Source of the DNA: Pantanalinema sp.
GTDB lineage: Bacteria > Cyanobacteriota > Sericytochromatia > S15B-MN24 > UBA4093
DNA length: 64,000 nt
Direction of reading: 5' to 3'
NCBI GenBank assembly: GCA_036704125.1
Contig: DATNQI010000090.1
Location: 1 to 64,000, forward strand
The stretch's first letter is position 1, and each line of letters begins with the position of its first letter. Below, piece by piece: positions 29,216 through 46,399 of the stretch. The notes under the pieces are model-generated. The model was given only the letters and a program-made list of their open reading frames with translations, was not told the DNA's origin and ran no database searches. The position numbers and the translations under genes were made by a program.

Positions 29216-30526
29216 ATGCAGCCAGACCTCATCATCATCAGCAACGGCCCTGGCGAGGTCTCGACCTGGGTCAGGCCCGTCGCGCGCCAGCTTCGCGGCG
29301 CCATGCCCGAGGCGCGCATCACCGTCGCCCTGGTGCCCTGCCCCCACGCGAGCGGTGAAGAGCGCCGCACCATCGAGGGCTGGGGCCTCGGGATCCGCGT
29401 CTGGGATCCCACCGAGTCCGTGCGTTACCTGCTCGGCGGTCGTCTGCCTTCCACCGAGCCGCTGCGCGAGAAGGGCGTCGTCCTGTTCCTTGGCGGCGAC
29501 CAGGCCTTCGGGGTCATGATGAGCGGCCGCACCGGTTTTCCGCTCATCACCTACACCGAGACGACCGGCCGCTGGGCGCCCTGGGTGGCGCGCTTCCTGG
29601 TGAGCGATCGCGACGTGTACCTCGCCATGCGCGCCAAGCGGATCGATCCGCGAAAGATCACCCTGGCCGGCAACCTGATGGTCGACGCGGTGCGTCCCCA
29701 GTACGACCCCCACGAGATCCGCGCCAGGCTGGACCTCTCGGCGGACGCCCCGGTCGTGGGCCTCTTGCCCGGCAGCAAGCCCTTCAAGGTCAAGTACATC
29801 ACCCCTCTGCTGCTCAAGGCGGCGGATCTGCTCTACGAGAACGATCCCTCGATCCAGTTCGTGCTGCACCAGTCCCCTTTCACGCCGCTCTCGCAGCTCC
29901 AGGAGGCGCTCGACGACGAGCGGCTCCACCGGGTCACGAGCGGGTGCGGCGGACGCCTGGTTCAAACGAGCGAGGGCCCGACGATCCTCACCCCCGGCGG
30001 GGCGAGCGTCCGGATCATCGGCCCCGAGCACCACTACTCGGGCATGGCAGTGGCGGACCTCGCCCTGACGGTGCCCGGCACCAACACCGCAGAGCTTGCG
30101 ATCCTCGGGGTTCCGATGATCGTGCTCTTGCCCCTCAACAAGCCCGAGGAGATCCCGCTCGACGGCCTCGCCGGCCAGATCGGCAACCTGCCGCTCGTCG
30201 GCAAGCCGCTCAAGCGCGCCGTGGTGCTCGCGCTCGCCAAGGGCCTCAAGTTCGCGGCCCTTCCCAACCAGCGGGCCGGAAGCGCCATCACCCCGGAGCT
30301 CGTGGGCGTCATCGCCCCCGAGGAGGTGGCCGCCCTCGCCGAGGCCATCCTGACCGATCCCGAGCGCAGCCGTGCCATCCGCCTGGCCCTTCACCAGGCC
30401 ATGGGAGAGCCCGGGGCTGCCGCCCAGACGGTGGAGGCCATCCGGGAGGTGCTGGCCCGAGCCGATCACGACCTCGCAGGCGCGATCCCCCCTGCCGTCC
30501 CGACGCGACCGGACGCCGAGGCATGA
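29216..30526 (+). CDS. LpxB-like (lipid-A-disaccharide synthase-related) glycosyltransferase
   Basis: 436 residues; GGGAAGGGA before the ATG. A GT-B fold protein: ISNGPGEVSTWVRPVARQLR at the start, LFLGGDQAFGVMM, LAGNLMVDAV, GLLPGSKPFKVKYI, and the late donor-site block LALTVPGTNTAELAILGVPMIVLLPLN, all resembling LpxB. LpxB joins two acylated glucosamines in lipid A. This form differs from proteobacterial LpxB, so the substrate may be another glycolipid. It overlaps the MsbA-like exporter by ATGA, which suggests that the product is exported by it. Confidence 0.8.
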   Translation: MQPDLIIISNGPGEVSTWVRPVARQLRGAMPEARITVALVPCPHASGEERRTIEGWGLGIRVWDPTESVRYLLGGRLPSTEPLREKGVVLFLGGDQAFGVMMSGRTGFPLITYTETTGRWAPWVARFLVSDRDVYLAMRAKRIDPRKITLAGNLMVDAVRPQYDPHEIRARLDLSADAPVVGLLPGSKPFKVKYITPLLLKAADLLYENDPSIQFVLHQSPFTPLSQLQEALDDERLHRVTSGCGGRLVQTSEGPTILTPGGASVRIIGPEHHYSGMAVADLALTVPGTNTAELAILGVPMIVLLPLNKPEEIPLDGLAGQIGNLPLVGKPLKRAVVLALAKGLKFAALPNQRAGSAITPELVGVIAPEEVAALAEAILTDPERSRAIRLALHQAMGEPGAAAQTVEAIREVLARADHDLAGAIPPAVPTRPDAEA

Positions 30527-32262
30527 CGCGCCGCGCCTTCCCCGGCCTCTGGGGCCGCCTGATTCCGTACGTCCGGCCCTACTGGCCCCTCATCCTGGGA
30601 GGGATCGCGGCCATCGTCCTGACCTCGCTCTCGACGCTCGCGAGCATCTCGGTGGCGCGCCAGGCGGCCGAGACCTTCGCCGCTCTCAGCCTCGACAAGC
30701 TCAACGCGCTGGTCCTCGCCCTGATCGCGGTCTACACCGGCAAGAGCCTCTTCACCTGGCTGGCCAACCTCGCCTCGGCATCCATGGCCCTGCATGCGAT
30801 CGCGGATCTGCGCACGGCCCTGTTCGAGCGGCTTCAGGCGCAGAGCCTCGCCTACTTCGAGCGGCGGGCCTCGGGGGACCTCGCGGCGCGGCTGGTCAGC
30901 GACGTGAATCTCCTGAAGGACGCCCTGGTGGTCGCCACGGCCGAGCTGGTGCCCAGCCTGATCATCGTGGTCTGCGCCATCTCCTACCTCTTCGTCCTCA
31001 ACTGGCACCTTGCGGCGCTCGCGGTCCTCGGCATGCCCCTGGTGGGCTGGGCGATCGGCATGTTCTCCCACCGGCTGCGCGACTGGTCCGCGACCGCCCA
31101 GGGCCGGGTCGGCGACATGCTCGCCTACCTGAACGAGCGCCTCTCCAACGTGCTCCTGGTCAAGAGCTTCGGCCAGGAGGGGCACGAGGCGGCGCGCTTC
31201 GCGTCGTTCAACCGCGACCACCTGCTCGCCACCCTGCGCGGCGCCCAGGTGCAGGCCCTCCAGACCCCGGTGGTCGGCTTCCTCCAGATCCTGGCCATCG
31301 GCGCGGTGTTCTGGATGGGCGGCTGGGAGATCCTCAACCACCAGCTCACCGTCCCAGACCTGCTCGCCTTCGCGGCGGCGGTCGGGGTCTGCATCGACCC
31401 GGTGCTGGTGGTCTCCAACGCGGTCGGCAAGATCCAGCAGGCCGCGGGCGCCCTCGATCGCATCTTCGAGGTGATGGACGCGCCCGCGGCCCTCGAGGAC
31501 GGTCCCGGCGCGCGCACCCTGCCTCACCTTCACGGCGACATCGTCTTCGACCGGGTCGTCTTCGCCTACGACGGCATGTTGCCGGTGCTCTCGGGCCTCG
31601 AGCTCAGGGTGGAGGCCGGTTCGGTGGTCGCCCTGGTGGGCCCCAGCGGCAGCGGCAAGACGACGGTCACCAAGCTGCTGCAGCGCTTCTACGATCCGCA
31701 GGCGGGCAGCGTCACCCTCGATGGCGTCGATCTGCGCGAGCTGCGCAGCGGCTGGCTAAGGCAGCAAGTGGGCTACGTCTCCCAGGAGTCGGCCCTCTTC
31801 TCGGGGAGCATCGCCGACAACATCCGATACGGCAAGCTTGACGCCACCGACGCCGAGATCGCGGCCGCGGCCCGCGCCGCCAACGCCCACGCCTTCATCT
31901 CCGCCTTCCCCGACGGCTACGAGACCCGGGTAGGGGAGCGCGGAGCGTCGCTCTCGGGCGGCCAGCGCCAGCGCATCGCCATCGCGCGCGCGCTCTTGAG
32001 GGATCCGCGCCTCTTGATCCTCGACGAGGCGACCTCGGCGCTCGACACCGAGTCCGAGGCCCAGGTCCAGGAAGCCCTCGAGCGCCTCATGCAGGGGCGC
32101 ACGACCCTGATCGTCGCGCACCGCCTCTCGACCATCCAGAAGGCGGACCGCATCGTGACCCTCGCCGAGGGGCGGGTCCTGGAGCAGGGCTCCCACGCCG
32201 ATCTGCTCGCCCAAGGCGGCCTTTACTCCAAGTGGTATGACCATCAGACCAGCGCCCGGTAA
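30523..32262 (+). CDS. MsbA-like ABC exporter (fused membrane and ATPase domains)
   Basis: 579 residues. Six membrane helices (about 10-300), then the nucleotide-binding domain with Walker A GPSGSGKTT, Q-loop YVSQESALF, signature LSGGQRQRIAIARALL, Walker B LLILDEATSALD and H-loop IVAHRLST. Typical half-transporter of the MsbA/lipid-flippase group. Its coupling to an LpxB-like enzyme favours a glycolipid substrate. The 3' end overlaps the next gene by 26 bases. Confidence 0.93.
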   Translation: MTRRAFPGLWGRLIPYVRPYWPLILGGIAAIVLTSLSTLASISVARQAAETFAALSLDKLNALVLALIAVYTGKSLFTWLANLASASMALHAIADLRTALFERLQAQSLAYFERRASGDLAARLVSDVNLLKDALVVATAELVPSLIIVVCAISYLFVLNWHLAALAVLGMPLVGWAIGMFSHRLRDWSATAQGRVGDMLAYLNERLSNVLLVKSFGQEGHEAARFASFNRDHLLATLRGAQVQALQTPVVGFLQILAIGAVFWMGGWEILNHQLTVPDLLAFAAAVGVCIDPVLVVSNAVGKIQQAAGALDRIFEVMDAPAALEDGPGARTLPHLHGDIVFDRVVFAYDGMLPVLSGLELRVEAGSVVALVGPSGSGKTTVTKLLQRFYDPQAGSVTLDGVDLRELRSGWLRQQVGYVSQESALFSGSIADNIRYGKLDATDAEIAAAARAANAHAFISAFPDGYETRVGERGASLSGGQRQRIAIARALLRDPRLLILDEATSALDTESEAQVQEALERLMQGRTTLIVAHRLSTIQKADRIVTLAEGRVLEQGSHADLLAQGGLYSKWYDHQTSAR

Positions 32263-34808: not shown

Positions 34809-34955
34809 GACGCTCTCTCCTCTTCGGGCGGATGGTGCCCCACCCTACTCCTTTCGCCAGGTGGTCGCAACCACCGTCAGGGCGCGTCATGCGCCTGGCG
34901 ATTCCTCGTCGAGATCGAGTATCATCACGGTGCTAACCACCGATCGAAGGTTCCG

Positions 34956-36515
34956 ATGCCCACCCCACGCCAAACCCTCAGGCTCTCCCTTTTCCTCTTC
35001 GCGCTGGCGCTCTTGATGTTCGGCCTCCAGCTCGGCCTTGACTCCCTCTATGACTGGGACGAGGCCTGGTACGGGCAGGTCGCCAAGGAGATGATCCGCT
35101 CGGGCGACTGGGTCACCCTGCAGTGGCGCGGCGCCCCCTTCTTCGACAAGCCCCCGCTCGCCATCTGGGCGATCGCCCTGAGCTTCAAGGTCTTCGGCGC
35201 GAGCGAGTGGGCCGCCCGCCTCCCATCCGCGCTCTGTTCCGCGGCCTGCGTTGCGGTCCTCTTCTGGATCGGGCGGATGGTCTTCGAACGGCAAGGGGCC
35301 GCCTTTCTCTCGGCGCTCGTCCTGCTGACGACCCTCCCCTTCGTCAAGGCGGGCCGGATGGCCATGCTCGACGGCCCGCTCACGCTGGCGTTCACCTTCG
35401 GCATCGCGACCTTCCTCGCCTCACGGCGCGACGGCCGCTGGGGCATCGGCTTCGGCCTCGCGCTCGCCGCGGTCTGGATGATCAAGGGGCCGCTCGCCAT
35501 CCTGCTCGCGCTCGTGTGCCTCGCCTTCGCCATCCTGGAGCGCAGGGCCTACGCATGGGGGTCCCCATGGCTGCTGCTGGGCTTGCTCCTCGGCGGGACC
35601 TGCCTTGCCCCGTGGTATGCCGCTCAGTGGGGCCGGTACGGGATGGAGTTCGTGCAGAGCCACCTGGGGATCCATGTCCTCGGCCGCGCTGCAAGCGCCA
35701 TGGACGGCCACCAGGGGGGGCCCTGGTTCTACCTGATCCAGCTCGCCGCGCAGAATCACCCCTGGTTTCTCGTGCTGGTGGCGGCCATCCCCTACGCCTG
35801 GCGTCACCGGGAGGCGCGCGCCATCCGCCTTTCGGCCTGCTGGGGCGGGGGCGTCCTGGTGGCCTTCTCCATGGCCGCCACCAAGCTTCCGTGGTACGTG
35901 GTGCCGATGTACCCCGGCTTGGCGCTGATGGTCGGCGCCTACCTCGACCACCTCATGGCCCGCAAGGCGCCGGCTGTTGGCCTCGGCAGGGCCTGGCAGG
36001 TCCTCGGCGCCCTCCTCCTGGTCGGGGGCATCCCTTACCTCATCCTCTCGCCGACGCCGGGAGACCGGGGCTACGTCATCGGCGTCGCCGTGCTTGGACT
36101 GGGGGTGATCCTAGGGGGCCGGCTGCTCTCAGGCCCCCGTCACCGGCAAGGCCCCTGGGTGGTCGCGGCGAGCGCCTATCTCGGCCTGCTTGGGCTCATT
36201 CCGGCCAACATCCAGTGGGAGACCCGCTTCTCGCCGGACCTGCGTCCGTTCGCCGCGGTGGCCGCCGAGCAGGTCCCTGCCGCGCGCGGGATCAATTACC
36301 TGGGCGCCACGACGCGCCCCTCGTTCGTCTACTACCTGGATCGGCCCGAGCGGCTCGTGACGGCCGACGTGCTGGCCGCCGCCTGGGGCCCAGGCGAGAC
36401 GGCCTTGCTGAGCGCGGAGGAGTGGGCGGCGATCGGGCCTCGGCTCGCTGGCGCGCGGCTCAGCGCCTCTGCGAGCGGCATGGTGTTCGTCACCGCCCCG
36501 CTCCGGCTTCATTAA
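34956..36515 (+). CDS. GT39/ArnT-like membrane glycosyltransferase
   Basis: 519 residues from ATG 34956 with GAAGG upstream. About eleven membrane helices and the GT-C signature SLYDWDEAWYGQVAKEM with the catalytic DE pair in the first external loop, then PFFDKPPLAIWAIALSFKVFG, the classic PMT/ArnT segment. It transfers a sugar from a polyprenyl-phosphate donor to lipid A, protein or another acceptor. Its TAA stop shares bases with the TAA of the convergent fusion gene (TTAA at 36512-36515). Confidence 0.9.
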   Translation: MPTPRQTLRLSLFLFALALLMFGLQLGLDSLYDWDEAWYGQVAKEMIRSGDWVTLQWRGAPFFDKPPLAIWAIALSFKVFGASEWAARLPSALCSAACVAVLFWIGRMVFERQGAAFLSALVLLTTLPFVKAGRMAMLDGPLTLAFTFGIATFLASRRDGRWGIGFGLALAAVWMIKGPLAILLALVCLAFAILERRAYAWGSPWLLLGLLLGGTCLAPWYAAQWGRYGMEFVQSHLGIHVLGRAASAMDGHQGGPWFYLIQLAAQNHPWFLVLVAAIPYAWRHREARAIRLSACWGGGVLVAFSMAATKLPWYVVPMYPGLALMVGAYLDHLMARKAPAVGLGRAWQVLGALLLVGGIPYLILSPTPGDRGYVIGVAVLGLGVILGGRLLSGPRHRQGPWVVAASAYLGLLGLIPANIQWETRFSPDLRPFAAVAAEQVPAARGINYLGATTRPSFVYYLDRPERLVTADVLAAAWGPGETALLSAEEWAAIGPRLAGARLSASASGMVFVTAPLRLH

Positions 36516-38905
36516 CCGACGAAGCTTGAAGCGTGCTCGGCGATTCGCGCCGAGGCCCCCGGCGTGCCCATTCTGATTCGGCCGTTCTCGCGGATCCGCG
36601 CGAGCCGGTCGGGATCCCCCAGGACCTCCCATAGCATGCCTGCGATCGCCCCGGGATCCGCCGGACACAGCACCACCGACTCCCCGAGCAGGCGGGTCTG
36701 GGCCTCGGCGAAGGCCGGGTTGAACTGAGGCCCGTTCCCCGGGAAGGTGAGGACCGGCAGCCCCATTCCGACGCACTGCTCGTTGGCGGTGCCCGCCATC
36801 CCGATGACCGCCTCGACCCGGTGGATCCAGTCCCCGAAACGATTACGGCAGAGCTGGATCCGGACGCCGTCCGGGCCGGCTATCGCTTCCACGTCGCCCT
36901 CGAGGACCCATCCCTGGTCGGCGAGTTCGACGGCCAGCCGAACCACGTCGAGGCTCTCGGCGATCGCCGCGAAGAAGTCGACCTTGCGCCCTTCGGGTGC
37001 CGAGCGCGCCACGGCCCGACAGGCCAGGGCCAGGGCGCCCATGTTGGCGTACGCCTCGTCACGGCTGCCCGGCAGGATGCCGATGGCCACGGCTCCAGGC
37101 CGCAGCGGGAGGGGGCGCGACGTGGGTTGCAGCTCGTCCATCATGGGGTTGCCCAGGTCGTGAGCGAGGAAGCCGCGCGCGACGAGGTTGCTCGCAGTCA
37201 CCCCGTCGCGCGCATAGACGGCGCGACAGCGCGGGTGACGGATGAACCAGCGCTCGAAGAGACCGTAGCTGCCGAAGCGGCCCCCGAGGTAGTGATCGGA
37301 CTTGGCGCAGCCGACGAAGACAAAGGGCGCACCGGTGAGCCAGGCGAAGTAAAGGGGCACCACGTCGCCCACGGCGACGACCAGATCCACCTCCGAGCGC
37401 AGGGCGCGCACGGCGAGGATCTGGCGGATCGTCAGGCCCGCGAGTCCGTGATAGAGGTCCCTGAATAGGGCCCGGGGGCTGCGGAGGATGAACCCCCCGG
37501 ACGGCATGGACCGCGTGGGGCCGACGATGGCGGCTCCTGCGGCGCGCAGGGCGCTCCCCTCGCCCACGATCGGCATGGCCCAGAGCTCGGCCTTGGCCCT
37601 CGGCCAGCGCCTGGCGATGGTGCTCGCGATGCGATCCTCGCCGAAACCGTTGCTCACGAAGAGGATCCGCTTGATCTCGCGCCGGGGCTCGGGCTTGAAG
37701 CGGCGCATGGCCACGAGCATCCCGAGCATGCCGAAGAAGAGGATGCTGTTGCGGCCCTCGGTGAAGATGAAGTCGAAGAAGCCGACCACCAGGTAACCGA
37801 CGATGCTGCAGCCCAGGATGGCCACGTGAGCGTGCCACGGGGTCTTTCGGGTATCGATCGTCGCCTTGACGGCCAGCGAGATGAAGACGCCCAGCAGAAC
37901 GACCAGCACGACCAGGCCGAACTCGGCCCCGATCATGAGGTACATGTTGTGAGCGTGCGGCATCTTCTCGAGGATCGACGGATCCTCGAACTTCGGGTAG
38001 ACCAGGGGCCACGTGCCGGGGCCCCAGCCGGTCAGCGGCCGCTCGCGGATCATGGCCAGCGCGCTCTTCCAGACCAGGACCCGGTGGTGGTTGCTTGCGA
38101 AGTCCGTCTGGGCGAGCGTCTGAAGGCGCGGCATCACCATCGGCCAGAAGGCCATCATGGCCGCCGAGACCCCGCCCACCAGCGTGACGAGTATCCGCCG
38201 ATCGACCAGGATGCCGATCAAGAAGAAGGTCGCCACCGTCCCGATCCAGCCCGATCGGGAGCTGGTCAGCACCTGGCAGACCATGATGACGAGGAGGCCG
38301 AGCCCCACGACGATGCGCTCCTTGCGACGGCGCTGGAACATGAGCATCATCCCGATCCCGCTGGCCAGGATCAGGTAAGCCGAGAGGATGTTCGGGTGGT
38401 AGAAGATGGAGGCGGCGCGGTGGTCCCAGGTGCCGAGCTGGATGTTGAGCAGCGGCGACTGGTAGGTGAAGAAGACCTTGGAGTAGACCAGGCCGATCCC
38501 GACGAGCGCCCAGAAGACCGTCGTCCAGAAGATGTTGCGGCAGAGGCTCCAGACCCGCTGCGGGGAGTCGAGCATGAGCCCCACGACCCAGATGAGGGTG
38601 AAGTAGGCCCCGAAGAGCAGGATCGCAACGGCGCTCATGCCCGGCGAGACGCTGGTGGCCGCCGATATGGCCACCAGCGCCATGAGCAGCGACCAGCTCT
38701 TGGCAGGGATCGGAACCTCGATGCGAACCTTGCGCCAGCCGAAGTAGGTGCCCAGACCCAGCACGATGAGCGCGCTCAGGACAGAGGCGAGCGGGAGCAG
38801 GAAGAAGGCCGCTTGCAAGAGGACCCAGGCCGCCCTGGGTACCGCGGAAGGCCCCCGGGTGTCACGAAGCGGGATCCGCCGCTCGGCGACGCGCTCGATG
38901 CTCAC
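36512..38905 (-). CDS. Fusion protein: O-antigen ligase/polymerase domain plus LpxB-like domain
   Basis: 797 residues from GTG 38905, overlapping the GT2 stop as GTGA. Residues about 25-400 are a polytopic Wzy/WaaL-type domain (SSRSGWIG near 215-222, GWGPGTWP near 293-300, HAHNMYL near 318-324, all O-antigen-ligase hallmarks). From about residue 411 (IKRILFVSNGFGEDRIASTIARRWP) to the end is a soluble GT-B domain of the lipid-A-disaccharide-synthase-related type, with VFVGCAKSDHYLG, GILPGSRDEAY and GMAGTANEQCVGMGLPVLTFPGNGPQF. No stop or frameshift divides the two. An unusual arrangement: polymer ligation and lipid sugar transfer in one chain. Confidence 0.85.
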   Translation of the reverse strand: MSIERVAERRIPLRDTRGPSAVPRAAWVLLQAAFFLLPLASVLSALIVLGLGTYFGWRKVRIEVPIPAKSWSLLMALVAISAATSVSPGMSAVAILLFGAYFTLIWVVGLMLDSPQRVWSLCRNIFWTTVFWALVGIGLVYSKVFFTYQSPLLNIQLGTWDHRAASIFYHPNILSAYLILASGIGMMLMFQRRRKERIVVGLGLLVIMVCQVLTSSRSGWIGTVATFFLIGILVDRRILVTLVGGVSAAMMAFWPMVMPRLQTLAQTDFASNHHRVLVWKSALAMIRERPLTGWGPGTWPLVYPKFEDPSILEKMPHAHNMYLMIGAEFGLVVLVVLLGVFISLAVKATIDTRKTPWHAHVAILGCSIVGYLVVGFFDFIFTEGRNSILFFGMLGMLVAMRRFKPEPRREIKRILFVSNGFGEDRIASTIARRWPRAKAELWAMPIVGEGSALRAAGAAIVGPTRSMPSGGFILRSPRALFRDLYHGLAGLTIRQILAVRALRSEVDLVVAVGDVVPLYFAWLTGAPFVFVGCAKSDHYLGGRFGSYGLFERWFIRHPRCRAVYARDGVTASNLVARGFLAHDLGNPMMDELQPTSRPLPLRPGAVAIGILPGSRDEAYANMGALALACRAVARSAPEGRKVDFFAAIAESLDVVRLAVELADQGWVLEGDVEAIAGPDGVRIQLCRNRFGDWIHRVEAVIGMAGTANEQCVGMGLPVLTFPGNGPQFNPAFAEAQTRLLGESVVLCPADPGAIAGMLWEVLGDPDRLARIRENGRIRMGTPGASARIAEHASSFVG

Positions 38906-39756
38906 CTCGTCGCACTCAGGGCGGCGCGGGCCGCAGGCAGGCACATCAGGAAGGCGCGCTCGCGATCGCTGAGGATCAGACCCCGGCGCTCCTTGCGGGC
39001 AAGGGTTCTCGCGCGCCAGCCGATCTCGAGCCGCAAGGCGAAGCGCACCGGGCCGACGGCCCATGGGTAGTGCTTTCGCGCGAGGGTGAGGGACCCGCGG
39101 TAGCCCTCGGCCATGGCCCGGGCCCGCACCGAGAGGTCGGTTCTCGTCGAGACGCCCTCGTGGTGCTGGACCCGAACACCGCGCAGGCAGATAATGCCCC
39201 AGCCCGCCTTCGCCAGGCGCCAGGAGAGGTCCAGGTCCTCGTTGTAGAAGAAGAAGCCCTCGTCCAGCCAGCCGATGCCGTCGAGGGCGTCTCGCCGCAA
39301 GAGCAGGCAGGTGCCGGGCGCGAAGGAAAGCCGGACCGCCTCCTCGCCTAGCAGGCCCCGCCACCCGAGGCGAGGTCCCTGGGCGCGGCCGTCCGGCCAG
39401 CACATGACCGGCGTGACGGCGCCCACGCGCGGGTGCGCGTCGGCGTAGGCCACCATGGCCTCGAGGCTAGAGGCAGAGAGGGTCACGTCGTTGTTGAGCA
39501 GCAGCACGTAGCGGCTCTCGACGGCCCGTCCTCCACGGTTGCACGCCTTGGCGAACCCCTGGTTCTCCTCGTTCTCGATGACCAGGGCGTCGGGGAAGGC
39601 GCGTCGGACCAGCTCCACGCTTCGATCGCCCGAAGCGTTGTCCACCATGATGGGCCGCGTGCTCAGGGGGCCCGCCGCGGCGCCAAGGGCCGACAGGCAG
39701 GACTCGAGCACGCCCTCCCCGTTGAGGTTGGGAATCACGACGGCAACGTCAAGCAT
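38902..39756 (-). CDS. Family 2 glycosyltransferase (rhamnosyltransferase-like)
   Basis: 284 residues, GT-A fold: VAVVIPNLNGEGVLESCLSAL, VDNASGDRSVELV, NQGFAKACNRG, the metal-binding LLLNNDVTLS, and GFFFYNEDLDLSWRLAKAGW (acceptor/base ED motif). Soluble, probably acting at the inner face of the membrane on polysaccharide repeat units. Upstream partner of the ligase fusion, GTGA-coupled. Confidence 0.92.
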   Translation of the reverse strand: MLDVAVVIPNLNGEGVLESCLSALGAAAGPLSTRPIMVDNASGDRSVELVRRAFPDALVIENEENQGFAKACNRGGRAVESRYVLLLNNDVTLSASSLEAMVAYADAHPRVGAVTPVMCWPDGRAQGPRLGWRGLLGEEAVRLSFAPGTCLLLRRDALDGIGWLDEGFFFYNEDLDLSWRLAKAGWGIICLRGVRVQHHEGVSTRTDLSVRARAMAEGYRGSLTLARKHYPWAVGPVRFALRLEIGWRARTLARKERRGLILSDRERAFLMCLPAARAALSATR

Positions 39757-39864: not shown

Positions 39865-41802
39865 ATGAGCACCTACCTCGCCCTCTATCGCAAGTGGCGC
39901 CCCAGGAATTTCGCCGGCCTGGTAGGCCAGGAGCATGTCGCTCGCACGCTTTCCAACGCCATCACCGGCAACAAGCTCGCCCACGCCTACCTCTTCACCG
40001 GGCCGCGCGGGACGGGCAAGACCTCGAGCGCCCGCATCTTCGCCAAGAGCCTCAACTGCGCCGAGGGGCCGACCGTCACCCCGTGCGAGCGCTGCGCGGC
40101 GTGCGAGGGCATCTCCCGGGGCAACTTCCCCGACGTCATCGAGATCGACGCGGCCTCCAACCGCGGCGTCGACGACGCCCGCGACCTGCGGGACCGGGTG
40201 CGCTTCGCCCCGACCCAGGGGCGCTACAAGGTCTTCATCATCGACGAAGTCCACATGCTCACCAACGAGGCGTTCAACGCCTTGCTCAAGACCATCGAGG
40301 AGCCCCCCCCCAACCTGGTCTTCGTGCTCGCGACCACCGACGTCCACAAGGTCCTGCCCACCATCATCAGCCGGTGCCAGCGCTTCGACTTCCAGCGGAT
40401 CGCCTTCAAGCCGCTGGTCGACCACCTCGGCTACGTCGCCCTCGAGGAGGGCCTCCAGGTGGATCCCGCCGGAATCGCCGCGATCGCCAAGCGCGCCGAC
40501 GGCGGCCTGCGCGACGCGCTGAGCATGCTCGACCAGGTCCGGGCCTGCGCGCCGGGGACCGCGATCAGCGCCGAGGACGTCTTCAACGCGCTCGGCCTCG
40601 TCTCGAACGAGGCGCTCACCGAGGTGGCGCGCGCGATCGCGGAAACCCGGGTGGTCGATGCCATCGCGGGCGTTCATGCCCTGCTCGCCAAGGGCTACGA
40701 CCACCACGCGGTCCTCCGGGAGCTGGTCGAGACCTTCCGCCACCTGATGCTCGTCGGCCTCGCGCCCGATCGCGCCGGGGCCTTCGAGCTGCCCGAGACC
40801 CAGCTCGAGGCGCTCGGGGCGATCGCCGCCCGCTTCTCTAGTCCCGAGCTGCTGTACGCCCTCGAGGTCCTGCGCGAGACCGAGGACCTCCTCAAGGGCT
40901 CCAACCAGATGACCATCTGGCTCGAGATGGCGATGATGCGCCTGTGCGAGCGGGCCGACATCCCCTCGTTCGCGAACCTGACCCGCCGGATCGAGGCCCT
41001 CGAGGAGCGCCTCGCCAACGCGCCCGCCTCCCAGGGCAGGCCCGGTCCAGCGCGATCACCCTACGCGGCGCCCGTTCAGGCCGCCCCTGTCCAGAGCGCA
41101 CCTCCTCCGGCACCGATAGCGCCGGCGGCGCCTCCGGCCGAAGCACCTGCTGCTCCGGCCGGACCGGCACCGGGCGCGGGCCTTCCCTTTCCGAGCGCGC
41201 AGCCGGGCGCGGACGACGTGCACGCGGCGTTCCTCGCGGCCCTCGCGCGGGTGCACCGCAGCACCCACAGCCTGCTCGAGCAGCACGCGCTCCACGTGAG
41301 ACGCGACGCGGACGTTGTCGCGATCGCCATCAAGGCCACCATGCGCACCTTCTTCGACAAGGCCGACCGCAAGGCCTATCTCGACAAGGCCGCCGCCCAG
41401 GCATTCGGGGATACGGTTCGAACGGCGCTGTCGTTCGAGCAGGGGGATAGCCCCCGCCCTAGTTCGGCCGGCGCCCCGCAAGCGCCGGCCACCCTCTCAC
41501 CCCCGGAAACGCCCCCCGTCTCGCCTGCGCCCACCCTCGAACAGCCACCGGAGGCCGGGCCTCCGGTGGCCACACCGGCCCCCGACGAGGCCCCTCCCGT
41601 CGCGCTCACCGAGGACGTGGCGCCCCCTCTTGCGAAGCCTCAGGATCCCAGCCCGGCGGCGGCCCCCGCGCAGGAGCCGCCCGCCCCGAAGGCGGAGCCG
41701 CGAGGCGCCGGATCGAGCGGTCCTTCGCCGGAAAGGGCGAGCGATCTCGTGAGCCGCACCGCGGACATCTTCAACGGCAAGGTCATCGAACCGACGATCT
41801 AG
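39865..41802 (+). CDS. dnaX: DNA polymerase III subunit tau (gamma/tau)
   Basis: 645 residues. Clamp-loader ATPase: YRKWRPRNFAGLVGQEHV, Walker A GPRGTGKT (46-53), zinc cysteines C65, C74, C77 and C80, Walker B FIIDEVHML, sensor LATTDVHKV and SRC motif IISRCQRFDF. After about residue 370 comes a Pro/Ala-rich linker, a small helical domain (about 450-520) and a long Pro-rich tail. I see no A-rich slippery site for a gamma-forming frameshift. First gene of the run dnaX-mltG-yqeG-pnp-pbp. Confidence 0.96.
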   Translation: MSTYLALYRKWRPRNFAGLVGQEHVARTLSNAITGNKLAHAYLFTGPRGTGKTSSARIFAKSLNCAEGPTVTPCERCAACEGISRGNFPDVIEIDAASNRGVDDARDLRDRVRFAPTQGRYKVFIIDEVHMLTNEAFNALLKTIEEPPPNLVFVLATTDVHKVLPTIISRCQRFDFQRIAFKPLVDHLGYVALEEGLQVDPAGIAAIAKRADGGLRDALSMLDQVRACAPGTAISAEDVFNALGLVSNEALTEVARAIAETRVVDAIAGVHALLAKGYDHHAVLRELVETFRHLMLVGLAPDRAGAFELPETQLEALGAIAARFSSPELLYALEVLRETEDLLKGSNQMTIWLEMAMMRLCERADIPSFANLTRRIEALEERLANAPASQGRPGPARSPYAAPVQAAPVQSAPPPAPIAPAAPPAEAPAAPAGPAPGAGLPFPSAQPGADDVHAAFLAALARVHRSTHSLLEQHALHVRRDADVVAIAIKATMRTFFDKADRKAYLDKAAAQAFGDTVRTALSFEQGDSPRPSSAGAPQAPATLSPPETPPVSPAPTLEQPPEAGPPVATPAPDEAPPVALTEDVAPPLAKPQDPSPAAAPAQEPPAPKAEPRGAGSSGPSPERASDLVSRTADIFNGKVIEPTI

Positions 41803-41811
41803 AGGTGCACG

Positions 41812-42846
41812 ATGCGTGACCGCATATCCGAGCTCATCGCGTGGGCGCGGCGCCACCAGAGGCGCCTTGTGCCGCTGGCTGCTTCCGGCCTGGCAGCTGC
41901 GCTCGTCGTCGTCCAGTTCAGCCCCCCAAGCAAGCCGGGCTCACCCCCGCGCCAGGTCACCATTCCGAGCGGCAGCTCGCTGGCTGGCGCCGGCGAGGCC
42001 CTCGAAGCAAAGCGCATCGTGCGCAATCGCTTCGCCCTCTCGCTGCTCGGGCGCCTGACGGGCACCAGCGACAAGATCCAGCCGGGAACCTATGCCCTCT
42101 CGCCCGGCCTGAGCCCCTTCCAGGTGCTCGAGTGCCTGGTCGAGGGACGCGGGCGCCAGGAGCGCCTCACCGTCCCGGAGGGCTTCTCCGCAGGGCGCAT
42201 CGCCAGGCTGATCGATCAGCGCTCGGCCGGTGACAGCCGGCGCTTCTTGGCCCTGGTCGCCAAGCCCGAGGCTTTCGAGGCGAAGTACCCCTGGCTGAAA
42301 GACGTCGGCACCTCCCTCGAAGGCTACCTCTTTCCCGACACCTACCTCTACGAAGGGGACCGCCTCGACGAGCGCCGCCTGATCGACCAGATGCTGGCAC
42401 GCTTCGAGGCCGTGATCCTCGCGGACTACCGCACCGAAGCGCACCCGATCCTGCCGCTCACCGAGGCGCTGACCCTGGCCTCGATCGTCGAGCTCGAGGC
42501 CGCGCGCCCCGAGGAGCGAGCGCTCATCTCGGGGGTCTTCCACAACCGCCTCGCGCGAAGGATGCGCCTGGGCTCGGATCCCACCGTCGAGTACGCGCTC
42601 GGTCGGCACCAGGGGAACCGCGGCCTCAGCTTCAAGGACGTGAGGATCGACAGCCCCTACAACACCTACCGGTACGCCGGCCTGCCGCCCGGGCCCATCG
42701 CCAACCCGGGGCGCGAGAGCTTTCGCGCCGCGCTGCATCCCGAGAAGACGCCATACCTCTACTTCGTCGCCAAGGGCGACCGCGGCCATGCCTTCACGCG
42801 ATCCTACGCGGATCACCTTGCGGCTCAGCGCCGCTACAGGCCATGA
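41812..42846 (+). CDS. mltG: Endolytic murein transglycosylase
   Basis: 344 residues, one N-terminal membrane helix (about 20-38), a LysM-like region (VTIPSGSSLAGAGEALEAKRIV), then the YceG domain with FPDTYLY, LTLASIVELEA (catalytic Glu), GVFHNRLARRMRLGSDPTVEYALG and DSPYNTYRYAGLPPGPIANPG. It cuts nascent glycan strands and so ends their growth, and pairs functionally with the pbp gene downstream. Nine bases after dnaX. Confidence 0.95.
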   Translation: MRDRISELIAWARRHQRRLVPLAASGLAAALVVVQFSPPSKPGSPPRQVTIPSGSSLAGAGEALEAKRIVRNRFALSLLGRLTGTSDKIQPGTYALSPGLSPFQVLECLVEGRGRQERLTVPEGFSAGRIARLIDQRSAGDSRRFLALVAKPEAFEAKYPWLKDVGTSLEGYLFPDTYLYEGDRLDERRLIDQMLARFEAVILADYRTEAHPILPLTEALTLASIVELEAARPEERALISGVFHNRLARRMRLGSDPTVEYALGRHQGNRGLSFKDVRIDSPYNTYRYAGLPPGPIANPGRESFRAALHPEKTPYLYFVAKGDRGHAFTRSYADHLAAQRRYRP

Positions 42847-42894
42847 GCGAGGCACCGGGGCGCGCCACCGATGCTTTGCGCGGGCTCGCCGGAA

Positions 42895-42903
42895 TGGTAG
42901 AAT
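42895..42903 (+). promoter_or_regulatory. Extended -10 inside the mltG/yqeG junction
   Basis: TGGTAGAAT, 8 bases, then ATG 42912. Same geometry as at dnaX and rpsT. Confidence 0.6.
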
Positions 42904-42911
42904 CTACGCTC

Positions 42912-43454
42912 ATGAGCACCCGTACGAACTTACTTCGACCGGACCTGTGGGTCGGATCCGTCACCGAGATCTCGGCGACGGATCTCAAGGACCGCGGGAT
43001 CCGAGGCCTGATTCTCGATCTCGACGAGACGCTGGTCTCGGCCTTCGAGCATACCCCCCCGCCCGAGATTCACGCCTGGGTCCAGGAGATGAAGGCCTCC
43101 TTCTCCCTGTACATCCTCTCAAACAACCCGAGCGCCAAGCGCGTGCAGGTCGTCGCCGATCGGCTCGAGATCCCATGCGCATGCCGGGCCGCAAAGCCAC
43201 GCCGCAAGGGCTTCCGGGCGGCCCTGGCCGAAATGGGCATCCGAGCGGATCAGGCCGCCATCATCGGCGACCAGCTCTTCACCGACATCCTCGGCGGCAA
43301 CCGCCTTGGCGCCATGACCATCCTCGCCACCCCCATCGCCCCCGAGCACAAGCCCTTGCGCAAGCTCATGCGCCTGGTCGAGGGGATGTTCATCCGCGAG
43401 GCCGACACCATCCGTGAGAAGTTGCACCCCGACCACCTGAAGGAGACCCCGTGA
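42912..43454 (+). CDS. YqeG-type HAD-IIIA phosphatase
   Basis: 180 residues from ATG 42912, which matches the family start (NLLRPDLWVGSVTEI). An upstream ATG at 42843 overlaps the mltG stop as ATGA and would add 23 residues; it may be used on the operon mRNA. HAD motifs: LILDLDETLV (nucleophile Asp), LSNN, K in AAKPRRKGF, and IIGDQLFTDILGG. Related proteins include mitochondrial phosphatidylglycerophosphate phosphatase (PTPMT-independent GEP4). Substrate here unknown; phospholipid phosphate is possible. Confidence 0.87.
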   Translation: MSTRTNLLRPDLWVGSVTEISATDLKDRGIRGLILDLDETLVSAFEHTPPPEIHAWVQEMKASFSLYILSNNPSAKRVQVVADRLEIPCACRAAKPRRKGFRAALAEMGIRADQAAIIGDQLFTDILGGNRLGAMTILATPIAPEHKPLRKLMRLVEGMFIREADTIREKLHPDHLKETP

Positions 43455-44257
43455 CCGAAACGCTGATTGCCGCCCCCAAGTTGCCCGCCGTCGACCTGGG
43501 CGCGCCGCCCGAGCTCGGTATCGTCCTGGGGTCCGGCATCGTGGTCCTCGAGGACCTCGAGGACCAGATCGACATCCCCTACGACCGGATCGAGGGCCTC
43601 CCCGAGATCACCGTCGCCGGCCACGCGGGCGTGCTCACCATCGGCACCATCCCCGGCGGGGCGCGCGTGGCCATCGCCCGCGGCCGCTTCCACCTCTACG
43701 AGGGGCACTCCGTCGATGCCGCGACCAGCATCGTGCGCCTGTACGAGGCCATGGGGATCCGCAAGATCATCCTCACCAACGCCGCGGGCGGCCTCTGCGG
43801 CGACTGGCTGCCCGGCGATCTCATGCTGATCAGGGACCAGGTGAGCCTGCTCGACGGCTTCCAGGCCGGAATGAGCGCCCGTACCGTCCCCTCGTTCGGC
43901 GCCACCCCGGCCTACGACCCCGAGTGGACGGCCAAGATGGCCGCCTGGGGCAAGACGCAGGCCTTCAACCTGCGCGAGGGGGTCTACGCGGGCCTTCTGG
44001 GCCCCAACTACGAGACCCCGGCGGAGATCCTCTGGCTGCAGCGCATCGGCACCCAGGCCGTCGGCATGTCCACCGTGCTCGAGGCCGCCTACGCCAGCTC
44101 GCGCGGCATCCGGGTGCTCGGGATCTCCTGCATCACCAACATCGCCGTGACGGCCGAGGCCCAGGCGGCCACCTCGCACGGCGAGGTCGTCGACGTCGCC
44201 AAGATGGCCTCCGAGGCGATGAACCTCGCGCTGCGGGCGGCCTGCACCCTCGCCTAG
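43451..44257 (+). CDS. Purine nucleoside phosphorylase
   Basis: 268 residues from GTG 43451, overlapping yqeG by GTGA. Family motifs: IVLGSGIVVLED (phosphate loop), HAGVLTIGTI, ARGRFHLYEGHS, TNAAGGL and GLLGPNYETPAEI, with MSTVLEAAYASSRGIRVLGISCITN at the nucleoside pocket. Trimeric PunA-like form. Cleaves purine nucleosides with phosphate for salvage. Confidence 0.95.
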   Translation: MTETLIAAPKLPAVDLGAPPELGIVLGSGIVVLEDLEDQIDIPYDRIEGLPEITVAGHAGVLTIGTIPGGARVAIARGRFHLYEGHSVDAATSIVRLYEAMGIRKIILTNAAGGLCGDWLPGDLMLIRDQVSLLDGFQAGMSARTVPSFGATPAYDPEWTAKMAAWGKTQAFNLREGVYAGLLGPNYETPAEILWLQRIGTQAVGMSTVLEAAYASSRGIRVLGISCITNIAVTAEAQAATSHGEVVDVAKMASEAMNLALRAACTLA

Positions 44258-46399
44258 ATGAGCGACCGACCACGTCCTCGCCCCGGTCGGCCCTCTCAAA
44301 CCGGGCCGACCGGGGGTGACCCGCGCAGCGCGCTCTCCAAGCGTCGAGCCCCCGAGGCGAAGCGTCACAAGCGCCCCTTGACCTGGAAGGACCGCGCCGC
44401 CTTCGTCGGCTGGCAGGTCCTCTTCCTCGCGCTGGGCTCGGGGGTGGGGCTGGGGCTGAGCATGTCTCGCCTGCCGGACGTGAAGTCGCTCGAGGGCTGG
44501 GTCCCCACCGAGTCGACCCGGATCTACGACGCCAAGGGGCACCTGCTCGCCAACGTCCACGGCGAGGAGAACCGGGAGGTCGTCCCCCTCGGCGACATCC
44601 CCCGCCACCTTCAGGAGGCGGTCATCGCGGTCGAGGACGACCACTTCTACCGCCACCACGGCGTCAACCTCAAGGGGATCGCCCGCGCGGCCCTCACCGA
44701 CCTGGCCGAAGGGCGCAAGGCGGAGGGCGCGAGCACCATCACCCAGCAGCTCGCCAAGAACCTCTTCCTCACCAACAACAAGAGCTGGTCCCGCAAGATC
44801 GCCGACGCCTGGCTCGCCATCCAGATCGAGCACCGCTACTCGAAGCCGCAGATCCTGGAGATGTACCTCAACCAGGTCTACTGGGGCCACAACTGCTACG
44901 GCATCCAGGCAGCCGCCCAGAACTACTTCGGCAAGAAGACCAAGGATCTCACGCTCGCTGAGAGCGCGCAGCTCGCGTTCCTGCTGCGCGGGCCCGAGCG
45001 CTTCTCGCCCTACAAGGACGCCGCACTCGCCAAGCGCGGCCAGCGGGTGGCCCTGCTGCGCATGGTCCGCGCCGGCTTCATCACCCAGGCCCAGGCCGAC
45101 GCCGCCACGTCGGTCCCGCTCAAGTACCCCGGGGCGCAGAACTTCGCCTACAAGGCCCCCTACTTCACCAGCTACCTGCTCAACCAGCTCATCAACCGCT
45201 ACGGCAGCGACGTGGTCATGCGCGGCGGGCTGCGGATCCGCGCGACCATCGACTGGGAAATCCAGCAGAAGGCCGAGCAATTGCTGGCCCAGACCGTCGC
45301 CACCCATGGCAAGCGAATGAACTTCAGCCAGGGCGCGATCGTCGCCATCGATCCCCGGACGGGCTACATCCGGGCCATGGTCGGGGGGGTCAGTTACGCC
45401 AGGTCCAAGTTCAACCGCGTGGTCCAGGCCCATCGGCAGCCGGGCTCCTCCTTCAAGCCCTTCGTCTACCTCACGGCCTTCGAGCGCAACTACTCGCCCG
45501 CGACCCCGTTCAACGACGCCAAGGTCTCGTACGACGCCGGCAACGGCAAGCTCTGGACCCCGGAGAACTACGGCAACGCCAGCGGCGGCACCATGACCCT
45601 TCGCAAGGCGCTGGAGCAGTCCAACAACGTCATCGCCGTCAAACTGCTCGACCGGATCGGGATCGACCCGGTGATCGAGAACGCACACCGGCTCGGCATC
45701 CAGAGCCCGCTCGGCGCGAACCTCTCGCTTGCGCTCGGCAGCTCCGAGGTCACCCCCCTGGAGCTCGCGAGCGCCTTTTCGGTCTTCGCCGCCGACGGGA
45801 TGAGGTGCGAGCCCCAGGCCTACAGCATCGTCGAGGACCGAGCAGGCACGGTGGTCGAGCGCAACGACCCGAAGCCGCGCCGGGTCTTCGAGGCGGATCC
45901 CATCCGGGTGCTCAACGACGTCATGATGGGGGTCGTGCGCTACGGCACGGGGGCCGCCGCCAACATCGACCGGCCGGCCGCCGGCAAGACCGGCACCACC
46001 TCGGACCACCGCGACGCGTGGTTCGTGGGCTACACCCCGGACCTGGTGACGCTGGTCTGGCTAGGCAACGACGACAATGCCCGGATGAACGGCACCACGG
46101 GAGGCGCGGTCTGCGCGCCGCTCTGGAAGCAGCTGATGCAGGTGGCGCTCGCCAAGACGCCCGCGACCCCCTTCCCCTTGCTCGAGAAGCACCAGGTCGC
46201 CTCCACACGCTCGCTCAGCGCGGCCCCCGCGAGCCCCTCCAGCGCGTTCTTCATCCCGGGCAGCGACGCCGATCCCGCCAAGAGGCGTGCCACCCCCCGG
46301 CCCTCCCCCACCCCCGACCCCGATAGCTTGCCGGCATTCGAGGCGACGGAGAGCGCTCCTGGCGATGGCGACCATGGCCAGGACTCGCTGGGGCTGTAA
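44258..46399 (+). CDS. Class A penicillin-binding protein (PBP1A-type)
   Basis: 713 residues directly after the pnp stop. Basic cytoplasmic tail, one membrane helix (about 50-70), GT51 transglycosylase (IAVEDDHFYRHHG with Glu 126; GASTITQQLAKN), and transpeptidase with S-x-x-K (PGSSFKPF, Ser 397), SNN and KTGT (Lys 577). Polymerises and cross-links peptidoglycan. A Pro/Ser/Asp-rich tail of about 70 residues ends the protein. Co-transcribed with mltG. Confidence 0.97.
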   Translation: MSDRPRPRPGRPSQTGPTGGDPRSALSKRRAPEAKRHKRPLTWKDRAAFVGWQVLFLALGSGVGLGLSMSRLPDVKSLEGWVPTESTRIYDAKGHLLANVHGEENREVVPLGDIPRHLQEAVIAVEDDHFYRHHGVNLKGIARAALTDLAEGRKAEGASTITQQLAKNLFLTNNKSWSRKIADAWLAIQIEHRYSKPQILEMYLNQVYWGHNCYGIQAAAQNYFGKKTKDLTLAESAQLAFLLRGPERFSPYKDAALAKRGQRVALLRMVRAGFITQAQADAATSVPLKYPGAQNFAYKAPYFTSYLLNQLINRYGSDVVMRGGLRIRATIDWEIQQKAEQLLAQTVATHGKRMNFSQGAIVAIDPRTGYIRAMVGGVSYARSKFNRVVQAHRQPGSSFKPFVYLTAFERNYSPATPFNDAKVSYDAGNGKLWTPENYGNASGGTMTLRKALEQSNNVIAVKLLDRIGIDPVIENAHRLGIQSPLGANLSLALGSSEVTPLELASAFSVFAADGMRCEPQAYSIVEDRAGTVVERNDPKPRRVFEADPIRVLNDVMMGVVRYGTGAAANIDRPAAGKTGTTSDHRDAWFVGYTPDLVTLVWLGNDDNARMNGTTGGAVCAPLWKQLMQVALAKTPATPFPLLEKHQVASTRSLSAAPASPSSAFFIPGSDADPAKRRATPRPSPTPDPDSLPAFEATESAPGDGDHGQDSLGL

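Follow-up and report, generated by a model that had tools for sequence, protein, structure and literature searches.

WaaL ligases and Wzy polymerases (PF04932; CAZy GT121 and related GT-C families) are polytopic proteins with a Wzy_C core, a long loop before the last helices, and invariant Arg and His residues. The PF04932 family takes in ligases and polymerases alike. WaaL (CAZy family GT121, solved structure 7TPG) carries the motif H-[NSQ]-x9-G. For the O-antigen ligases, two Arg residues plus one His have been described (PMC10920833).

A second family, TIGR03492 (‘lipid-A-disaccharide synthase-related’), is common in cyanobacteria, and the members read here are separate genes of ~340–460 aa. 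A literature search for the family name, or for a fusion of the kind described below, returned nothing relevant.

In the window, the whole 64,000-nucleotide stretch of Pantanalinema sp. DNA that was analysed, the two kinds of protein are joined in one gene. Its N-terminal half (N-half) shares the core, polytopic character and loop of WaaL and Wzy and likewise has invariant Arg and His residues, but a GT-B domain at the C-terminus is found only in the fused protein. Its C-terminal half (C-half) has the full-length match and motifs of TIGR03492 proteins, but among the members read only here does such a domain lie fused behind a membrane domain. The combination is genuine and apparently unique, and is drawn from two known enzyme kinds. 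A Wzy_C protein whose cytosolic tail carries a GT-B transferase appears to be a rare architecture, with both parts known. It is a modest, lineage-specific fusion and not a new kind of system.

The fused gene and its two halves

The gene and its parts are as follows.

36512..38905, minus strand: fused gene, Wzy_C-type GT-C followed by TIGR03492 GT-B, 797 aa
37682..38905, minus strand: N-half, residues 1 to ~408, polytopic and Wzy_C/O-antigen-ligase-like (from PF04932, genome placement and invariant columns)
37892-38299, minus strand: PF04932 core, residues 203-338
37664..37705, minus strand: junction, residues 401-414, RRFKPEPRREIKRI, Arg/Lys-rich with little or no linker
36530..37663, minus strand: C-half, residues 415-792, TIGR03492, GT-B type (from the NCBIfam score and profile and structure searches)
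38902..39756, minus strand: GT2 glycosyltransferase, upstream of the fused gene with a 4-base overlap

Read on the minus strand from 38905 to 36512, the gene gives 797 codons without a stop, inside a stop-to-stop frame of 984 codons, and the corresponding frame of the plus strand contains stops. The single 797-residue frame noted in the preliminary description, which gave no strand, is thereby confirmed, and the continuous frame joining both domains is real in the assembly. The start is a GTG at 38905; it is credible because it and the TGA that ends the upstream GT2 gene overlap by four bases, which also suggests an operon. We infer that the fused polypeptide is actually made. The evidence for the fusion comes from one genome and one assembly, compared with genomes of other genera.

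Residues 203-338 of the N-half match Wzy_C (PF04932) with E = 6.7e-22 and 78.3 bits, against a gathering cut-off of 31.7 (Pfam). Arg217, Arg260, His317 and His319 fall in invariant columns of an alignment of 10 homologues, a pattern that appears to fit the pair of Arg residues and the single His described for the O-antigen ligases (PMC10920833). The structural model of this half is poor, with pLDDT under 50 (AlphaFold of the whole protein, with only one further sequence as input), and its topology therefore rests on hydropathy and charge.

The N-half may instead be a polymerase (Wzy) or another PF04932 enzyme and not a ligase; we put this somewhat below an even chance, and it is compatible with the reading preferred below. 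In that case the fusion would link the addition of a sugar to the polymerisation of the chain. Membership of PF04932 is shared by both kinds of enzyme, the genome carries four Wzy_C genes besides the fused one, and a class profile of the N-half searched against the PDB gave no sequence match to the solved WaaL. On the other side, the N-half contains H-N-x9-G, close to the WaaL motif, together with the invariant Arg residues, and its MsbA-like and LpxB-like neighbours might suit a lipid A-type acceptor. The original label ‘O-antigen ligase/polymerase’ accordingly stands as a Wzy_C class assignment, while ‘ligase’ says more than PF04932 and the PDB search support.

The C-half matches TIGR03492 over positions 1-392 of 396 at 390.5 bits (NCBIfam; curated cut-off 219.2), so that the two domains lie in the order first proposed. 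It is the sole TIGR03492 protein above cut-off in the genome and keeps the family motifs SNGFGED, MPSGGF, VGD, NPMMD, LPGSR, GTANEQ and GPQF. Profile and structure searches gave GT-B proteins as the best structural matches, the nearest being UDP-GlcNAc 2-epimerases, MurG and NDP-sugar transferases. For the second Rossmann domain, pLDDT is 70-87, the profile match 9e-5 and the Foldseek probability 1.00 (E 5e-10); the first domain and the domain arrangement are poorly modelled (TM-score under 0.4), and the model overall is moderate. The C-half is probably a GT-B type transferase.

The C-half had been called ‘LpxB-like’, a label that goes too far for a TIGR03492 protein. In its C-terminal Rossmann domain it is remotely homologous to LpxB (hhalign gives 96.8% against the genome’s own LpxB) but falls below the LpxB models, and is absent from the PF02684 (E<0.01) and TIGR00215 results; we therefore reject its identification as LpxB. 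A role as lipid A disaccharide synthase was likewise rejected, since the true LpxB (247 bits) and LpxC are encoded elsewhere, on contig C85. Dependence of TIGR03492 on lipid A is in any case unlikely: the family is not tied to LPS, because the control genome Deinobacterium chartae has a TIGR03492 match and no LpxC match.

The halves meet at about residues 405-411, close to the residue 410 originally estimated, and almost without a linker. The junction reads RRFKPEPRREIKR, with seven Arg or Lys among 13 residues, and lies just after residues 385-401, which form the last predicted helix. Because this Arg/Lys-rich stretch follows that helix, the positive-inside rule places the GT-B half, as a prediction, in the cytosol, which would locate it where nucleotide sugars are.

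Distribution and genomic context

We compared the gene with a class sample of 18 genomes, the window’s own included, and a phylum sample of 386. The fusion is absent from all 17 other class genomes, where the halves, when found, are separate genes and were seen sharing a contig in G006 only; one genome (G017) matched neither half. The fusion protein has matches at E<=1e-20 in at least 198 of the 386 phylum genomes, for the most part to its TIGR03492 half, and among the matches listed none spans both halves. A 53-residue query across the junction matched the window’s own genome only, although a query of this length might overlook a fusion that has diverged. No fusion was found in plasmid and viral collections, and a contig scan with strict patterns, which finds close relatives only, returned one relative, with the C-half only.

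A recurrent Wzy_C–TIGR03492 fusion family was accordingly rejected, the window’s genome standing alone in the class sample and, among the matches listed, in the phylum sample. The idea of a general fused family thus gives way to a fusion in one lineage, the homologues found being always separate, which is the outcome that the preliminary description had named as a refutation; as far as can be seen the fusion is a single-lineage event. The check it proposed, whether relatives carry the halves as separate adjacent genes, showed separate genes wherever the halves were found in the class; adjacency, in divergent orientation, was seen in G006 only.

One further candidate was set aside. At the start of a contig in G002 (L060, positions 1-1545, G002:C181), a 514-aa TIGR03492 frame enters from the contig end with a 134-residue extension. 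The extension is not membrane-like, contains an ambiguous residue and is probably non-coding, and a separate Wzy_C gene is present in that genome.

Three further genes of the window form the surroundings.

34950..36515, plus strand: ArnT/PMT-like lipid-linked-sugar transferase (start estimated), convergent with the fused gene, ends overlapping by 4 bases
29216..30526, plus strand: second LpxB-like gene (distant PF02684), beside an MsbA-like exporter in relatives
30523..32262, plus strand: MsbA-like ABC exporter (start estimated), named from reading its translation and kept as a neighbour in relatives

The second LpxB-like copy at 29216, already pointed out in the preliminary description, is real: it matches PF02684 at 39.2 bits, and TIGR00215 and TIGR03492 only below cut-off. 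It and the C-half are remote relatives (hhalign 96.9%, 23% identity). It belongs to a distant LpxB-like family of ~430-460 aa, with 39 bits to PF02684, that stands apart from the genome’s true LpxB. Members adjoin or nearly adjoin an MsbA-like exporter in the window (29216-32262) and at two other loci (L053, 11270-15134; L056, 7691-10751), and the pairing was found in several genomes of the order.

A dnaX-mltG-yqeG-punA-pbp block is kept across families of the order (window 39865-46399; L053; L059), and a Wzy_C gene is often its divergent neighbour. As in the window, such a gene lies beside or near dnaX in G001, G002 and G007, and near an MsbA-like gene in G001, G004 and G007. Because the Wzy_C gene keeps its dnaX and MsbA-like neighbours in relatives, the N-half occupies the ancestral position.

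For both the C-half and the upstream GT2 gene, the nearest relatives are found in a GT2–TIGR03492 pair of G006 and G008 (~53% and 56% identity), and in the tree the C-half groups with G004, G006 and G008 (support 100/99). It does not group with the homologue of the same-family genome G001, which belongs to a distant, different TIGR03492 clade. Such a placement would be explained by a fusion that came after either transfer or an ancient duplication with differential loss. Next to the GT2–TIGR03492 pair of G006 lies the Wzy_C gene, in divergent orientation and with a GT4 gene beside it. This locus (L051), among the closest GT2/TIGR03492 relatives, thus resembles the window in having GT4, Wzy_C, GT2 and TIGR03492 genes side by side, but its Wzy_C gene is divergent and unfused. 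In G008 the genes lie on two short contigs, where adjacency is unreadable, and in most relatives the TIGR03492 homologues are not near Wzy_C genes. The G006 adjacency, with its genes arranged differently, is the sole independent sign that the two functions are linked. In G006 and G007, GT2 domains also occur within long open frames (1271-1498 aa), possibly large multi-domain glycosyltransferases.

A proposed role for the fused protein

Our preferred reading, which we regard as probable, is a recent, real fusion that tethers two enzymes of one cell-surface glycan pathway. The topology, substrates and coupling of the fused protein in what follows are those we infer. The pathway would make a lipid-linked oligosaccharide or an LPS-like surface glycan. 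The C-half, a cytosolic GT-B enzyme, would work at the cytoplasmic face and extend a lipid-linked acceptor by a sugar taken from a nucleotide donor; a flippase or exporter, possibly the nearby MsbA-like exporter, would act between the two steps; and the N-half, a polytopic GT-C enzyme, would use its conserved Arg and His on a lipid-diphosphate-linked glycan at the periplasmic face, which it would either polymerise or join to an acceptor lipid. Because the two active sites would stay separate, on opposite faces of the membrane, the fusion would serve as a tether with fixed 1:1 stoichiometry rather than create a shared active site. It is not required for function, since other genomes of the class keep the halves separate.

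Under this preferred reading, the fusion and the G006 adjacency tie TIGR03492 to surface-glycan polymerisation or ligation, an assignment that is testable. A bifunctional trans-membrane enzyme we regard as somewhat unlikely: the glycosyltransferase that finishes a lipid-linked sugar in the cytosol would then be held to the periplasmic polymerase or ligase by which that sugar is consumed. If true, this would give the TIGR03492 family a pathway.

More doubtful is a real but incidental fusion, whose halves would serve different pathways, or would be released as partly separate products by internal initiation or cleavage, with no coupling between them. The restriction to one genome, the placement of most TIGR03492 homologues away from Wzy_C genes and the Deinobacterium chartae match would all suit such an accident. 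It accounts less readily for the GT2 gene that overlaps the fused gene, or for the fact that Wzy_C and GT2–TIGR03492 are also neighbours in G006, a genome of a different family of the order with another arrangement.

Formation of the junction

An artefact, in which a 1-base indel or a misread stop codon joined two genes whose ends overlap, is unlikely. In its favour, the halves are separate genes in all relatives found; a stop (GTGA) interrupts one alternative frame at codon 417, just within the second domain, so that a single-base error anywhere from residue ~405 to residue 416 could have joined two overlapping genes; and the ATG codons at residues 396 and 400 could be a former start of the second gene. 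Against it, the other alternative frame lacks a nearby stop, third-position GC is normal across the junction, these internal start codons have no clear ribosome-binding site upstream, and the tail of the first half (RRF..., compare the tails in G001 and G009) runs on in the same frame, within ~6 residues, into the start of the second half.

Homologues of the N-half end in short tails, ...ATRRFANAPSS in G001 and ...ALRRFAAKHPDC in G009, and those of the C-half begin like MSRRVLFISNGHGED in G006. Where tail and N-terminus join, the fused gene reads ...AMRRFKPEPRREIKRILFVSNGFGED. In this stretch a natural end meets a natural beginning, and the near-seamless junction fits a stop lost between neighbouring genes.
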